Shown here: in pieces, positions 28,947 through 34,534 of the stretch | Numbering within the stretch: the stretch's first letter is position 1 | Layout of the letters: the number at the start of each line of letters is the position of its first letter | Assembly (NCBI GenBank): GCA_031291305.1 | Contig: JARLJH010000069.1 | Span: 1 to 64,000 of the forward strand | Reading direction: 5' to 3' | DNA: 64,000 bases | Source: Rhodoferax sp. | Lineage (GTDB): Bacteria; Pseudomonadota; Gammaproteobacteria; Burkholderiales; Burkholderiaceae_C | Translations under genes and position numbers: made by a program | The notes under the pieces: model-generated | Told to the model about the DNA's origin: nothing | The model's input: only the letters and a program-made list of their open reading frames with translations | The model's database searches: none

Positions 28947-30359
28947 ATGCACATTCATATTCTGGGTATTTGCGGCACCTTCATGGGAGGACTGGCTGCG
29001 CTGGCACGAGAGGCCGGTCATCGGGTTACGGGTTGCGATGCGGGCGTTTATCCGCCGATGAGCGACCAACTTCGCGCCTTGGGCATTGATCTGATGGAAG
29101 GCTTTGGCGTCGACCAGTTGGACCTCAAGCCCGACGTGTTTGTGGTGGGCAACGTGGTAAGTCGCACCCGGCTGAGCAACGGCAGCCCCAAATTTGCGTT
29201 GATGGAAGCCATTCTGGACGCTGGCTTACCCTACACCAGCGGCCCACAGTGGCTCAGCGAACATATTTTGCAAGGGCGCCACGTGCTCGCCATTGCAGGA
29301 ACACATGGCAAAACCACCACCACAGCCATGACAAGTTGGATTTTGGAATACGCTGGCCTGCAACCTGGCTTTCTGGTCGGTGGCGTACCCTTGAATTTTG
29401 GTATTTCTGCACGCTTGGGTCAGGGCAAGTCCTTTGTCATTGAGGCTGACGAATATGACACAGCTTTTTTCGACAAACGTAGCAAGTTTGTGCATTACCG
29501 CCCGCGTACCGCTGTCTTGAATAATCTGGAATTCGACCACGCTGACATCTTTGACGACCTGTCGGCCATCGAGCGCCAATTTCACCATCTGGTGCGCACT
29601 GTACCTGGCGCGGGACCACACGGCAGTGGTCGCATTGTCGTCAATGGGCTCGAAGAAAGCCTGGCGCGCGTGCTACACATGGGGTGCTGGAGTGAGGTCC
29701 GCAGCTTTGGTGCGGCGGTAAGCGATTTCACCGCGAACGGGCCTGCGCATGACTTTGACGTCTTGCACCAAGGCCGGGTTGCCGGACATGTAACCTGGAA
29801 CCTGACCGGCATTCACAACCAGCTCAATGCGCTGGCAGCCATCGCCGCTGCCGAGCACTTGGGCGTGCCGGTTGATCAGGCGACGCTGGCCTTATGCAGT
29901 TTCGAGAACGTCAAGCGCCGCATGGAGGTGCGTGGTTCAGTGGTTGTCGGGCATGGCGCGTCACGCGGCCCGGTCACCGTTTATGACGACTTTGCACATC
30001 ATCCCACCGCTATCCGTACAACGCTGGACGGCTTGCGTAGCAGCTTGAAAGCAGGGGAACGGATTCTGGCTGTGTTCGAGCCGCGCTCCAACACCATGAA
30101 ACTGGGCACCATGAAGGCTTTGCTGCCATGGAGTCTGGAAAACGCTGATCTGGCCTTCTGCCACAGCGCCGGGCTGGGCTGGGACGCCGCGAATGCACTA
30201 GCGCCAATGAGTGACAGGGCGCTGGTGAGTGATCAGCTGAACACCCTGGTGACGGCAGTCACAGACGTGGCGCGGGCCGGTGACCACATCGTCTGCATGA
30301 GCAACGGCAGCTTTGGTGGTGTGCATGCCAAGCTGCTAGAGACACTACACAATAAATAG
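28947..30359 (+). CDS. mpl: UDP-MurNAc:tripeptide ligase Mpl
   Basis: This 470-residue Mur-ligase-family enzyme reattaches the recycled tripeptide L-Ala-gamma-D-Glu-mDAP to UDP-MurNAc. It starts HIHILGICGTFMGGLAALAREAGH, the Rossmann-like UDP-binding domain, with the ATP loop AIAGTHGKTTTTAM near residue 115 and the C-terminal domain with VYDDFAHHPTAI. It uses the product of AmpD, encoded 7 kb away. Length and motifs are normal. A dispersed repeat copy begins at its stop codon. Confidence 0.95.
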   Translation: MHIHILGICGTFMGGLAALAREAGHRVTGCDAGVYPPMSDQLRALGIDLMEGFGVDQLDLKPDVFVVGNVVSRTRLSNGSPKFALMEAILDAGLPYTSGPQWLSEHILQGRHVLAIAGTHGKTTTTAMTSWILEYAGLQPGFLVGGVPLNFGISARLGQGKSFVIEADEYDTAFFDKRSKFVHYRPRTAVLNNLEFDHADIFDDLSAIERQFHHLVRTVPGAGPHGSGRIVVNGLEESLARVLHMGCWSEVRSFGAAVSDFTANGPAHDFDVLHQGRVAGHVTWNLTGIHNQLNALAAIAAAEHLGVPVDQATLALCSFENVKRRMEVRGSVVVGHGASRGPVTVYDDFAHHPTAIRTTLDGLRSSLKAGERILAVFEPRSNTMKLGTMKALLPWSLENADLAFCHSAGLGWDAANALAPMSDRALVSDQLNTLVTAVTDVARAGDHIVCMSNGSFGGVHAKLLETLHNK

Positions 30360-30414
30360 CTGCATGTCCTTTCGTTGCCTGGGCTAGAGGCCAATAAGTC
30401 ATATAACTCTTGGC
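30356..30414 (+). repeat. Dispersed AGCTAT/GAGGCC repeat, copy D
   Basis: ATAGCTGCATGTCCTTT, then CCTGGGCTAGAGGCCAATAA and an ATATAA end, placed exactly at the mpl stop codon and before the convergent aroG. Confidence 0.75.
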
Positions 30415-30456
30415 CACCGCCGCAGATTCAGAGGTCATCAACAGCGCAGCTTGGCT

Positions 30457-31599
30457 TTACCGCACCCGGCGCGCCTTGACCGCCTGCGAGAGCACCTCAA
30501 GCACTTGCAGGGAGTCATCCCAACCCAGGCAGGCATCGGTGATGCTCTGGCCATAGATCAACTTGTCGGTCTTGTCCTTGCCGGGTGAAAACTTCTGTGC
30601 GCCAGCGTTGAGGTGGCTTTCAACCATCACGCCAAACACCTGCCGCGAGCCACCAGCGATCTGCGCCGCAATATCGCGCGCGACGTCGATTTGCTTCTCA
30701 TGCTGCTTGCTGCTGTTGGCATGGCTGCAATCGACCATCAGCGTGGCGGGAAGTTTGGACTTTTCCAGTTCGGCACAGGCTGCAGCCACGCTAGCCGCAT
30801 CGTAGTTGGGCGCTTTGCCACCGCGCAGGATGACGTGGCAATCCTTGTTGCCCTTGGTCTGCACAATCGCCACCTGGCCGTTCTTGTGAACCGACAAAAA
30901 GTGATGCCCGCCCGCGGCGGCGTGGATCGCGTCGGTGGCGATGCGGATATTGCCATCCGTGCCATTTTTGAAGCCAATCGGTGCCGACAGGCCCGAGGCC
31001 AGTTCACGGTGCACCTGGCTTTCGGTCGTGCGTGCGCCAATCGCGCCCCAACTGATCAAATCACCCAGGTATTGCGGAGAAATCACGTCCAGAAATTCGC
31101 TGCCAGCGGGCAAGCCCAAGCGGTTGATCTCGATGAGCAACTGGCGCGCGATGCGCAGGCCTTCGTCAATGCGGAAGGATTCGTCCAGGTACGGATCGTT
31201 GATCAGCCCCTTCCAGCCGACCGTGGTGCGGGGTTTTTCGAAATACACGCGCATCACGATTTCCAGTGAATCGGCGTATTTCTCGCGCTGTGCCTTGAGC
31301 TTCCTGGCGTAGTCCATCGCCGCCGCCGGGTCGTGAATGGAGCATGGGCCAATCACCACCAGCAACCGGTCATCCTTGCCGACCATGATCTGGTGGATGT
31401 TGCGCCGGGTGGCGCTGATCATCTTCTCGACCGGTGTACCGTGAATCGGGAAAAACCGGATCAGATGTTCTGGAGGAGGCAGCACGGTGATGTCCTTGAT
31501 GCGTTCGTTGTCGGTTTCACCGGTTCGATCAGTGGCGTTTACATTCAAAGAATTGGCCCAGGCATCCTGGTCGGGCGAAACAACGGTTTTGGCATTCAT
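30457..31599 (-). CDS. aroG: 3-deoxy-7-phosphoheptulonate (DAHP) synthase, class I
   Basis: This 380-residue enzyme joins phosphoenolpyruvate and erythrose 4-phosphate, the first step of the shikimate pathway. Seen: LLVVIGPCSIHDPAAAMDYA, MRVYFEKPRTTVGWKGL, GARTTESQVHRELASGLSAPIGFKN and MVDCSHANSSKQ, all characteristic of the AroF/AroG/AroH family. The allosteric specificity cannot be told from this alone. The start follows AAGGAAACC. Immediately upstream lie an aromatic-residue-rich leader peptide and a transcription attenuator, which suggest control by aromatic amino acid supply. The gene symbol is given for the family. Confidence 0.93.
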   Translation of the reverse strand: MNAKTVVSPDQDAWANSLNVNATDRTGETDNERIKDITVLPPPEHLIRFFPIHGTPVEKMISATRRNIHQIMVGKDDRLLVVIGPCSIHDPAAAMDYARKLKAQREKYADSLEIVMRVYFEKPRTTVGWKGLINDPYLDESFRIDEGLRIARQLLIEINRLGLPAGSEFLDVISPQYLGDLISWGAIGARTTESQVHRELASGLSAPIGFKNGTDGNIRIATDAIHAAAGGHHFLSVHKNGQVAIVQTKGNKDCHVILRGGKAPNYDAASVAAACAELEKSKLPATLMVDCSHANSSKQHEKQIDVARDIAAQIAGGSRQVFGVMVESHLNAGAQKFSPGKDKTDKLIYGQSITDACLGWDDSLQVLEVLSQAVKARRVR

Positions 31600-31631
31600 G
31601 AAAGGTTTCCTTGCAGGGTTGACATCAAAAA

Positions 31632-31718
31632 CACAAAAAAAAACCGCCGGTGGTGCCGGCGGTTTTTGAGGAATCAGGACGTTTTTTTTGGGTACGTTCA
31701 GAACTCTCTACCGCCAGC
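31632..31718 (-). promoter_or_regulatory. Transcription attenuator upstream of aroG
   Basis: On the minus strand, an intrinsic terminator hairpin (CCGCCGG, loop CACCA, CCGGCGG, then nine T; 31,635-31,667) stands between the leader peptide and aroG. Its 5' arm ACCGCCGGC (31,663-31,655) can instead pair over nine bases, one of them G-U, with GCTGGCGGT (31,718-31,710), which lies inside the leader peptide just after the aromatic codons. This gives the two mutually exclusive folds of ribosome-mediated attenuation: stalling at the aromatic codons leaves the antiterminator free, while translation to the stop masks it and lets the terminator form. Confidence 0.8.
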
Positions 31719-31766
31719 GGCGCTTGAGAACCAAAAGTAGCTAAAGAAGAAGTTCACTGATTTCAT
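31698..31766 (-). CDS. aroG leader peptide (aromatic-rich attenuation peptide)
   Basis: This short frame of 22 codons starts MKSVN and continues FFFSYFWF, that is five Phe, one Tyr and one Trp in eight codons, before a small-residue end (SSAAGGREF). The stop codon lies about 30 bases before the terminator hairpin. It is too short to have another function and matches the layout of known attenuator peptides such as E. coli PheL. No good ribosome-binding site precedes it (the 5' side is CCCTCCC). TACATT about seven bases upstream may be a -10 box, so the transcript could start at or very near the ATG. Confidence 0.75.
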   Translation of the reverse strand: MKSVNFFFSYFWFSSAAGGREF

Positions 31767-31828
31767 GGGAGGGAAATGTAGCACAGTCGATTCGCGGAAA
31801 ACTGACACTGCGCCAAGACAGAGCCTGT

Positions 31829-33289
31829 TCAGGCGGTGCCGCCGACGGTCAGGCCATCGAGCCGCAAGGTGGGTTGACCGACGCCAACTGGCACGCTTTG
31901 CCCCTCTTTGCCGCAGGTGCCGACACCGCTGTCGAGCTTCATATCGTTGCCGATCATGCTCACGCGTTTGAGGCACTCGGGGCCACTTCCCACCAGCGTG
32001 GCCCCTTTCACCGGGTACTGGATCTTGCCGTTTTCCACCCAGTACGCCTGACTGGCCGAGAACACGAACTTGCCCGAGGTGATATCCACCTGACCACCGC
32101 CAAAGTTAGTGGCGTACAAACCTTTTTTGATACTGGCAACGATTTCCTCTGGTGGTTTGTCGCCGCCCAGCATGTAGGTGTTGGTCATACGTGGGATTGG
32201 CACATGGGCGTAGCTTTCACGCCGACCATTGCCGGTGGGCTTCACACCCATCAGACGCGCGTTCATGGCGTCCTGGATGTAGCCTTTGAGAATACCGTCT
32301 TCGATCAGCACATTGCGACCGCTGGTGTTGCCCTCGTCGTCCACATTGAGCGAGCCGCGACGGTCGGTAATCGTGCCGTCATCCAACACCGTCACCCCCT
32401 TTGCTGCCACACGCTGACCAATGCGACCACTGAAGGCGCTTGAGCCCTTGCGGTTGAAATCGCCTTCGAGTCCGTGACCAATGGCCTCATGCAGCAAGAT
32501 GCCGGGCCAGCCTGGGCCCAGCACCACAGTCATTTCACCGGCGGGTGCGGGGCGTGCTTCCAGATTGGTGAGCGCAGCCGTCACGGCTTCATCAACGTAG
32601 CGCTCGATCAAGGCATCGTCAAAATAGGCAAAGCCAAAACGGCCACCACCGCCGGCCGACCCAACCTCGCGACGGCCCTTTTGCTCAGCAATCACGGTCA
32701 CGCTCAGGCGAACCAGCGGGCGCACATCAGCTGCAAGGGTGCCATCGGCGCGGGCGACCAGCACCACATCGTGTTCAGCCGCCAGGCCGGCCATCACCTG
32801 AGCCACACGCAGGTCTTTGGCGCGCGCCAGTTTCTCCACCTTTTCCAGCAAAGCCACTTTGGCCGTGCTGTCCAGGCTGGCAATCGGATCCAAGCCGCCG
32901 TACAACGAACGCGAAGACGCTATTTTTTTAGCAGCTACTCGCGCTTTCTTGTCCTGGGCTGCAGCCGAAATTGATCTAACAGTGTTGGCTGCATCCATGA
33001 GCGATGCCTCTGAAATATCATCCGAGTAGGCGAACGCCGTTTTCTCGCCGCTGACCGCCCGCACACCCACACCCTGGTCAATGGAAAATGAGCCCGTTTT
33101 GACAATCCCCTCCTCCAGGCTCCAGCCCTCACTGCGGGTGTATTGGAAATACAGATCAGCCTCATCGACCTGATGCGCCTTGATGGCAGCCAGAGCCCGG
33201 CTCAGGTGCGCCTCATTCAGACCAAAAGGGGTTAACAGGAGGGACTTGGCAACGCCAAGGCGTTCAATGGTGGGTTCACGTGAAATCAT
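31829..33289 (-). CDS. tldD: Metalloprotease TldD
   Basis: This 486-residue protein is the TldD subunit of the TldD-TldE protease, which trims unfolded peptides and processes modified peptides such as microcin B17. The zinc motif HEAIGHGLEGD (HExxxH) is present near residue 263, with the conserved end GGDKPPEEIVASIKKGLYATNFGGGQVD and the C-terminal SMIGNDMKLDSGVGTCGKEGQ. Length is normal. The partner TldE is not in the window. It is transcribed towards the aroG leader, about 60 bases away. Confidence 0.95.
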   Translation of the reverse strand: MISREPTIERLGVAKSLLLTPFGLNEAHLSRALAAIKAHQVDEADLYFQYTRSEGWSLEEGIVKTGSFSIDQGVGVRAVSGEKTAFAYSDDISEASLMDAANTVRSISAAAQDKKARVAAKKIASSRSLYGGLDPIASLDSTAKVALLEKVEKLARAKDLRVAQVMAGLAAEHDVVLVARADGTLAADVRPLVRLSVTVIAEQKGRREVGSAGGGGRFGFAYFDDALIERYVDEAVTAALTNLEARPAPAGEMTVVLGPGWPGILLHEAIGHGLEGDFNRKGSSAFSGRIGQRVAAKGVTVLDDGTITDRRGSLNVDDEGNTSGRNVLIEDGILKGYIQDAMNARLMGVKPTGNGRRESYAHVPIPRMTNTYMLGGDKPPEEIVASIKKGLYATNFGGGQVDITSGKFVFSASQAYWVENGKIQYPVKGATLVGSGPECLKRVSMIGNDMKLDSGVGTCGKEGQSVPVGVGQPTLRLDGLTVGGTA

Positions 33290-33399
33290 GTGGCGATTTT
33301 AGGTCGCACAGTGATCCGTACCACTGGCAATGGCTTTGGAGGTCCATCCGGGCAGACTGTCATCCGACGGACAAGCCCTCAATGTTGACCATTGGAATG

Positions 33400-34489
33400 G
33401 ATAGACCGTGCTACAACCCGCGTATGCTCAGCACCAGGCGGCGGGCTTGAACGCCAATCTGGGTGGTCGAGACCAAATGGCACTGGAGGTCGAGCGGCAA
33501 ATCGTGCACTGGATACGTGATCTTTTCCAGTTCCCTGACACCGCCTCAGGACTGTTTGTCACCGGTTCATCCACAGCCAACCTCATGGGTGTGCTGGTGG
33601 TGCGCACCAAGGCCTTGAGTACGGATTCCCTCCTCAGTGGCATCAGCCGGTCAACGAACATGGCCAGATGGACACCTGGGCCATGACACCGCGGATCTTG
33701 GCAGACAAATCCACAGGCCTGAAGCCGTTTCTGGTGATTGGCACCGCAGGCACGGTCAACACCAGTGCCATGGACGACCTAGCCAGCATCGCCGCCATCG
33801 CCCGCCAGCATGGCCCGTGATTTCATGTGGACGACGCGCTAGGCGCCCTGGGCATGCTATCGCCAACTATTGCGCCTCTGCTCAAAGGCATTGAACGGGC
33901 CGACTCCTTGGCGCTGGACTTTCACAAATGGGGGCAAGTTCCATACGACGCAATCTTTTTCATGGTGCGCGACGGCGCCGCGCAATCCGACACGTTTGCC
34001 TCACCAAGCGCCTATCTGGCACGCCACACGCGTGGTCTGGGCGGTGGCTCACCGTGGCCTTGCGACCTAGGTGTTGACTTGTCGTGCAGTTTTCGCGCCC
34101 TGAAAACCTGGTTCACCCCGATGTGTTACGGCACCGATCAGTTGGGTGCTGTGATGGAGCACACCTGCACACTGGCACAAACCATGAAACAACAGCTCCA
34201 AATCTACCCCGAACTGGAGCTGATGGCCCCCGTCGCACTCAACATCGTTTGTTTTCGCCACCGCTGCGATAACGTCAACTGGGTCAACGCCGATGAGATC
34301 AACGCCGAGATCGTGGCGGATTTGCACGAATCTGGCATCACCGGGCCTTCAGTCAGTCAGATCCACGGTCATACCGTCATTCGCGCCACCGTCGTCAATC
34401 ACCGCACCACGGAGTGTGACATCGATGCCCTGCTAAACGCTGCACAAGCCATGGGCCGTGCACGTTGCGAGCCACACTCTGCCGACTGA
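33400..34489 (+). pseudogene. Broken PLP-dependent decarboxylase (group II)
   Basis: Three stretches match one aromatic/acidic amino-acid decarboxylase of the PLP type: LNANLGGRDQMALEVERQIVHW ... LFVTGSSTANLMG (33,408-33,620), KPFLVIGTAGTVNTSAMDD (33,720-33,780) and LALDFHKWGQVPYDA with the PLP-binding Lys in HKW (33,911 onward) to the C-terminus. They are in different frames or interrupted: about 60 residues are missing after 33,650, a TGA at 33,819-33,821 replaces the Trp codon before FHVDDA, and the N-terminal about 80 residues are absent. The gene is dead. The last part is still open for 220 residues and looks only lightly decayed, so loss was recent. Confidence 0.88.
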
Positions 34490-34534
34490 ATTGACTGGCT
34501 GGCGTCACCAGTCTGACACGAGACAACGTGCAGA

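Follow-up and report, generated by a model that had tools for sequence, protein, structure and literature searches.

A candidate ribosome-mediated attenuator with an aromatic leader peptide precedes the DAHP synthase gene aroG in Comamonadaceae and other Burkholderiales

The pheL-pheA and pheST attenuators of Escherichia coli work with alternative stems, the aroR-aroF attenuator of Corynebacterium glutamicum reportedly goes back to an original study by Neshat et al. from 2014, and in the attenuator prediction for aroA-tyrA of Vibrio we take aroA to be the DAHP (3-deoxy-7-phosphoheptulonate) synthase gene. The C. glutamicum case is the nearest known system, i.e. a leader with aromatic codons precedes a DAHP synthase operon and stalling raises transcription; this aroR leader contains Phe-Tyr-Phe and is reported to answer to Phe, not to Tyr, and Trp is not named in the account of it given there (PMC11802643). 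The two E. coli attenuators are likewise leader-based and answer to charged Phe-tRNA, but their target genes differ from the one considered here; for the DAHP synthase genes of E. coli the same account names repressors as the regulators (PMC11802643). In Sinorhizobium meliloti the RNA of the trpL leader ORF begins at the ATG and is subject to attenuation, which provides a precedent for a leaderless start, there, however, for Trp, before trpE(G) and in an alphaproteobacterium (PMC7298713). Within the Gammaproteobacteria, a DAHP synthase attenuator has been predicted for Shewanella aroF, listed as 'Attenuator sensing tyr-tRNA' (PMC2659441 Table 3), and a further attenuator for Vibrio aroA-tyrA (PMC1173090 Table 7); both are predictions in other orders, and their likeness to the present locus is one of description and not of compared leader sequences. 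The locus described here differs from that of C. glutamicum, an actinobacterium, in that it belongs to another phylum, combines Phe, Tyr, and Trp codons in one block and probably has a leaderless start. We found no description of this leader among openly accessible papers as judged from titles and abstracts, and the word aroG is absent from the main text of a survey of premature terminators (PMC2965389); the leader may have been predicted before, e.g. in a subscription journal or in the web database of attenuators cited in PMC1173090.

The window, i.e. the whole stretch of 64,000 nucleotides of Rhodoferax sp. that was analysed, carries on its minus strand, as read directly from the sequence, an extended -10 element, 8 nt, a 22-codon leader frame, a G+C-rich hairpin followed by nine T, an AAGGA motif, and aroG (Table 1). 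An earlier note, made from the letters alone, had described the aromatic frame, the pairing arm at its end and the hairpin with its T-run, all at coordinates that we could confirm, and had named the downstream gene as DAHP synthase, in agreement with a score of its product far above the cut-off of TIGR00034 (539 vs. 173 bits). With NF006723 (AroG) the product reaches 546.9 bits, slightly below the cut-off of 568. The leader frame has seven aromatic codons within codons 6-13, followed by Phe22. None of the Rfam covariance models matches positions 29000-34500 of the window at E values up to 1, and no NCBIfam family matches the 22-residue peptide at E values up to 1, where very short models could escape detection.

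Table 1. Features of the aroG leader region in the window (all on the minus strand)
Feature	Position	Strand	Basis or remark
Extended -10 promoter element TGTGCTACATT (predicted)	31775..31785	-	hexamer TACATT at 31780-31775; 8 nt 5' of the leader ATG
Leader ORF MKSVNFFFSYFWFSSAAGGREF	31698..31766	-	22 codons + TGA; direct reading and translation
Predicted transcription start	A of the leader's ATG, or up to about 2 nt away	-	from the position of the -10 element
Codons 10-13 (Tyr-Phe-Trp-Phe), proposed stall window	31728..31739	-	FW[FIYS] conservation and spacing to element 2
Element 1 (UUCUC), anti-antiterminator 5' arm	31726..31730	-	codons 13-14; pairs with GAGAG
GAGAG, anti-antiterminator 3' arm	31704..31708	-	within the end of the leader frame
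Element 2 GCUGGCGGU (DNA GCTGGCGGT), antiterminator 5' arm	31710..31718	-	pairs with element 3
Element 3 ACCGCCGGC, arm common to antiterminator and terminator	31655..31663	-	sequence reading, pairing counts
Element 4 CCGGCGGT + nine T, 3' arm of the terminator with its U-tract	31635..31650	-	3' arm from 31650; T-run 31643-31635
AAGGA, SD-like site of aroG	31608..31612	-	3' of the terminator; sequence reading
aroG, DAHP synthase, 380 aa	30457..31599	-	profile matches

The arrangement is conserved. In a family sample of 120 genomes, one per genus, 119 had an AroG match; eight genomes with a weaker best match (E 1e-150 or worse) were left out, and the 111 orthologs with upstream DNA (L001-L111) show 74-100% identity. 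An aromatic leader and a terminator lie 5' of aroG in 110 of these 111, and in the remaining one the contig stops between leader and gene, with the terminator alone being visible. Carriers include Polaromonas, Variovorax, Acidovorax, Comamonas, Hydrogenophaga, Ramlibacter, Xylophilus, Limnohabitans, Rhizobacter, Ideonella, and others, which suggests a placement of the window in or close to Comamonadaceae. The family leaders share a core of roughly [FY]-[FY]-F-x-Y-F-W-F-S, followed by a stretch encoding GGCGG and GAGAG. Inspection of the sequences upstream of 18 second-paralog DAHP synthases (L112-L129; 58-64% identity), sampled from many paralog matches, revealed no such leader, only 136 nt of upstream DNA being available for L113 (64% identity, from one of the eight weaker genomes). 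A strict caller, which demands a frame with at least five aromatic codons, an exact 7-bp hairpin and a T-run, is positive for 84 of the 110 family leaders, for none on the reverse strand, for a mean of 0.0 in base shuffles and for 0 of the 17 paralog upstream regions long enough for scoring. Its 26 misses, which we accepted by inspection of the sequence, are due to the hairpin rule alone in 24 cases, to hairpin and length in one and to the aromatic count in one. The automatic choice of arms is doubtful for L032, L039, L081, and L099, each of which has a G+C-rich hairpin with a T-run in its sequence. Start codons were picked by hand for L009, L014, L032, L042, L075, L100, L102, and L108, with L042 and L100 lying outside the pattern search; L058, the start of which is not settled, was kept in the counts of codon content and promoters and left out of alignment and geometry. 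The single-sequence fold of the window's leader is unremarkable (z -1.42; 20 of 200 shuffles fold equally well), and thus it is conservation, not folding energy, that carries the case.

The lack of a normal ribosome-binding site at the leader, already pointed out in the earlier note, extends to the family, where SD-like bases precede 1 of 110 leader starts vs. 34 of 44 aroG starts; the explanation that we propose for it was not given in that note. A TANNNT hexamer ends 6-10 nt 5' of the ATG in 103 of the 110 leaders (at 7 nt in 64 and at 8 nt in 25) and is preceded by TGn in 99, the other seven having no -10 element at a leaderless distance. Upstream background windows contain TANNNT at this spacing in 0.7% and TGn in 0.0% of cases. 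The spacing of σ70 promoters puts the transcription start on or beside the A of such an ATG. The conserved extended -10 element directly 5' of the ATG thus points to a leaderless start, which would account for the missing ribosome-binding site, and judging from this promoter position the transcript of the leader ORF is probably leaderless in this family. The motif alone is uninformative, as the combination of extended -10 element and ATG occurs nine times in the genome of the window vs. eight times in a reversed control; what makes it informative is its constant position 5' of the leader. Outside the family, the hexamer lies 6-9 nt 5' of the start in 17 of 60 distinct leaders and SD-like bases are found in 2 of 60, i.e. 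the absence of an SD sequence is general, whereas a clear predicted leaderless promoter is confined to part of the order. If leaderless loading is true, the first ribosome would be on the RNA once the 5' end exits the polymerase, which would replace a ribosome-binding site and aid coupling. For Campylobacter, an account of leaderless mRNAs also covers putative leader peptides, the latter not being described as leaderless there (PMC3847290).

Mutually exclusive antiterminator and terminator folds had been proposed in the earlier note, and both the pairing counts and the folds in relatives support them. Pairing was counted in an alignment of 52 of 104 leaders (every second one; L032, L039, L058, L081, L099, and L105 were left out of the 110), and in this as in all pairing and covariation counts related genomes contribute more than once. 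The antiterminator, i.e. CCGGCGG of element 2 with CCGCCGG of element 3, is paired in 81.8% of the alignment cells as compared with 18-53% in slid registers; the terminator is paired in 95.2% and UUCUC:GAGAG in 96.9%, with double-sided changes at two pairs of the latter. RNAalifold, with no structure supplied, returns exactly two stems, UUCUC:GAGAG and the terminator. UUCUC:GAGAG, which overlaps the control codons, is the anti-antiterminator that completes the four-element scheme.

Covariation is modest. Six cells of the antiterminator are changed on both sides, a value reached by 0 of 500 shuffles, but its number of double-sided pairs is attained in 101 of the 500 shuffles and its number of pair types in 356, neither of them thus being higher than in shuffled alignments. 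Compared with the true register, a +3 slide of the antiterminator has more double-sided pairs (4 vs. 2) and cells (12 vs. 6) at an equal covariation score, and in the count that covers UUCUC:GAGAG and the terminator more double-sided pairs are again found at a +3 slide (4 vs. 3), while a +2 slide scores higher for covariation (0.063 vs. 0.058). The true register is distinguished by the cells paired, to which covariation adds only a little; the alignment of relatives suggested in the earlier note was thus strongly positive for aromatic codons and stems and only modestly so for covariation. In some rows, MAFFT seems to place element 2 one base off. In a count anchored on elements 2 and 3, one pair between them is G-C in 91, A-T in 6, and G-T in 2 of 99 family rows, 10 of 109 rows being unanchored. 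Six of the 52 aligned leaders have a U in element 3, five of them with the matching A in element 2, and their terminator retains a U-G pair; here it was thus the antiterminator whose full strength was preserved. A neighbouring pair is C-G in 76 of 99 family rows, with 15 having no standard pair; outside the family, T-A takes its place in 25 of 56 rows, C-G occurs in 7, and 21 have no standard pair. In L105, which is not part of the alignment, the terminator arms read CCGCTGG/CCAGCGG instead of CCGCCGG/CCGGCGG, i.e. a C-to-T change in element 3 is accompanied by a matching A in both opposing arms, element 2 being AGCGG.

The sequence thus contains the features by which ribosome-mediated attenuators are recognized: an ORF rich in aromatic codons, a predicted intrinsic terminator between leader and aroG, an exclusive antiterminator that shares the 5' arm of the terminator, and an anti-antiterminator that overlaps the control codons. 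The architecture of ribosome-mediated attenuation, as put forward in the earlier note, is supported by the conservation before aroG, by the stems and by the paralog control, and from this sequence evidence we put the probability that leader-peptide transcription attenuation controls aroG at about 0.88. In the mechanism that we propose, transcription would begin on the A of the leader AUG or right next to it, and the leaderless message would be loaded by a ribosome that trails the polymerase. With ample charged Phe-, Tyr-, and Trp-tRNA this ribosome would reach the UGA and cover element 2 or, alternatively, it would leave and UUCUC:GAGAG would form; under these conditions elements 3 and 4 would form the terminator, leaving aroG untranscribed. 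If one of the three tRNAs is short, the ribosome would stall on codons 10-13 and cover UUCUC, and element 2 would be free to pair with the emerging element 3, so that the polymerase may read into aroG. In this scheme, the site at which transcription starts, the stalling of the ribosome, the effect of each amino acid and the altered expression of aroG are inferred.

The geometry of the leader is consistent with this scheme. A ribosome extends about 10 nt beyond its A-site codon. In the window (+1 being the A of the ATG) the Trp codon occupies nt 34-36, element 1 nt 37-41, element 2 nt 49-57, and the stop codon nt 67-69. Judging from the footprint, a ribosome stalled on Tyr10, Phe11 or Trp12, and just about on Phe13, would mask element 1 without reaching element 2. 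With a ribosome on Phe codons 6-8 most or all of element 1 would stay accessible, and one at the stop codon would mask element 2. In 87 of 93 measurable leaders, 10-13 nt separate the Trp codon from element 2, which suits a footprint of about 10 nt; the element 2 pattern used for this count may begin 3 nt early (L002, L005). When folded with a ribosome on Trp and the 3' arm of the terminator not yet made, 88 of 92 leaders form a helix of at least 6 bp between elements 2 and 3; upstream-shuffled controls do so in 36%, which shows that G+C-rich arms pair readily by chance. For the window, this fold has a 9-bp helix between elements 2 and 3 (-22.6 kcal/mol) and also appears with the ribosome on Phe8 or Phe6, or absent. 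Thus, energies alone do not select codons 10-13, and it is the footprint argument that does so. In the full RNA the terminator is formed in 85 of 92 leaders, i.e. the complete terminator outcompetes the antiterminator, and the switch must therefore be kinetic, as in known attenuators, with the order of events being decisive.

Joint sensing of all three aromatic amino acids, as suggested in the earlier note, is a prediction from codon content and ribosome geometry. Phe, Tyr, and Trp codons are all present in 101 of the 110 family leaders (Phe in 110, Tyr in 108, Trp in 103), and nine lack Tyr or Trp. FW[FIYS] is found in 97 of the 110, with Tyr as the preceding residue in 76 of the 97, and the codons found at positions -6 to -4 relative to Trp are for the most part those of Phe or Tyr, with both third bases in use, as expected under coding constraint. 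The Phe codon that follows Trp is TTC in 83 of 97, because element 1 lies there. Among 60 leaders from outside the family, 28 have all three amino acids, 28 Phe and Tyr only, three Phe only, and one Phe and Trp; with 31 of 60 lacking Trp, sensing of Trp is not universal. It is possible, if somewhat unlikely, that the same attenuator responds to limitation of Phe only, or of Phe and Tyr, the Trp and Tyr codons contributing little. Phe codons dominate, leaders without Trp exist within the family, too (7 of 110), and the C. glutamicum aroF operon is described as unaffected by Tyr despite its Phe-Tyr-Phe leader (PMC11802643). The presence of Trp and Tyr in nearly all family leaders and the near-fixed distance of Trp from element 2 are, however, hard to square with idle codons. 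That Phe, Tyr, and Trp each elicit a response of their own has, in our view, an even chance of being correct, and we give the same evens to the fuller reading, i.e. an old Burkholderiales attenuator with a leaderless ORF that carries Tyr-Phe-Trp-Phe at the unmasking position, so that a shortage of any one of the three would open DAHP synthase expression. Apart from these considerations, the Phe codon preceding Trp (31736-31734 in the window) is TTT in 91 of 97 leaders, both Phe codons occurring elsewhere in the block. The leaders prefer TTT overall (302 TTT vs. 189 TTC; 82 vs. 55 in L001-L030), whereas the aroG genes of L001-L030 prefer TTC (61 TTT vs. 194 TTC); perhaps this reflects a codon choice that slows decoding, or RNA structure.

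Other readings of the locus give the peptide, the RNA or the hairpin a different role. In an arrest mechanism like that of TnaC the aromatic peptide would itself stall the ribosome during its synthesis, in response to a free amino acid, and the peptide end (GGRE, SVPGG) is indeed common to many family members. This end is accounted for by the RNA arms that it encodes, little but the aromatic character persists across the order (MSAKFYFYFFWHLKPLADREG, MYSRASSYFWYYFSKPQAVKG, and others), and a stall at high ligand concentration would lead to read-through in excess, i.e. the wrong sign for a biosynthetic gene, so that we regard arrest as very improbable. The variability of the peptide outside the aromatic block also argues against an additional action of the short RNA or the peptide in trans, as known for rnTrpL/peTrpL of S. 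meliloti, where the trpL RNA, too, extends from the ATG of the leader ORF to the attenuator (PMC7298713); we consider such an action improbable. It is finally conceivable that the hairpin is the terminator of the upstream gene, that the frame arose by chance and that aroG is uncontrolled. The upstream gene, presumably tldD-like judging from its sequence, lies on the same strand and ends at 31829, about 60 nt 5' of the leader. Yet the leader is conserved 5' of aroG as one unit with its promoter and the two alternative stems, and reverse-strand and shuffled controls have none, which makes this the most improbable of the readings. Ribosome-mediated attenuation is clearly the strongest explanation.

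Related leaders are found 5' of aroG in other families of Burkholderiales, e.g. MSAKFYFYFFWHLKPLADREG and near variants in Burkholderia, Caballeronia, and Paraburkholderia, and leaders of type MHSSVFFTGYFYFSNSNPKAVE in Massilia, Rugamonas, and Janthinobacterium; a MAG labelled Bordetella also has a leader. The strict caller is positive for 55 of 79 aroG loci outside the family (80 were taken, one being too short). The outside-family set of 60 distinct peptides of 66 was picked by script and may contain errors, with L259 being clearly wrong; L176, L177, L179, L180, L182, L186, L188, L198, L205, L207, and L208 had been excluded beforehand. We saw no convincing leader upstream of aroG in three Polynucleobacter, two of three Cupriavidus, Thauera, Rhodocyclus, and Azoarcus, among others. 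In L161, L162, and L164 (Polynucleobacter) as well as L167 and L168 (Cupriavidus) the aroG upstream of which no aromatic leader was found is about 75% identical to that of the window, suggesting either loss or copies that moved without a leader.

A covariance model built from 52 family leaders matches in at least 60 of 250 sampled genomes of the order, a lower bound due to stricter filters, and in 4 of 185 genomes of a class-wide draw, two of them outside the order. In the genome of the window it finds only the site itself and a weak image on the reverse strand (E 1.5). Fifty of 51 inspected match sites outside the window lie beside aroG (29 of 29, 19 of 20, and 2 of 2 in the three sets of sites) and one, L241, beside a leuA-like gene. 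The two loci L261 and L262 (G528, G376), from the same class and from one family outside the order, have aroG with an aromatic leader of type MNAARASFYFWYYFPKPLAEEG, which suggests either a wider range or transfer. L241 (G114:C1:2437783-2437914, minus strand) is a second, weak model match (E 0.006) in another genus, with the frame MSNFSISLLLDVRHGQVW, the element TGTGCTACATT closely 5' of the ATG and a terminator-like hairpin, followed by the gene that we take to be leuA-like from its sequence; it looks like a leaderless leucine leader. No leader was seen upstream of leuA in the genome of the window.

The class of mechanism is a textbook one, which limits the surprise, and the leader family is unmatched in the Rfam and NCBIfam libraries that we searched. 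If our reading is true, the locus would provide a natural attenuator with multiple inputs as well as a conserved instance of leaderless translation that serves a well-defined purpose. Comamonadaceae and other Burkholderiales are a large and much-used group, and the locus would have practical bearing on the engineering of aromatic compounds there. The aroG gene of Comamonadaceae and other Burkholderiales would then be under the control of a translational sensor that reads three amino acids at once.
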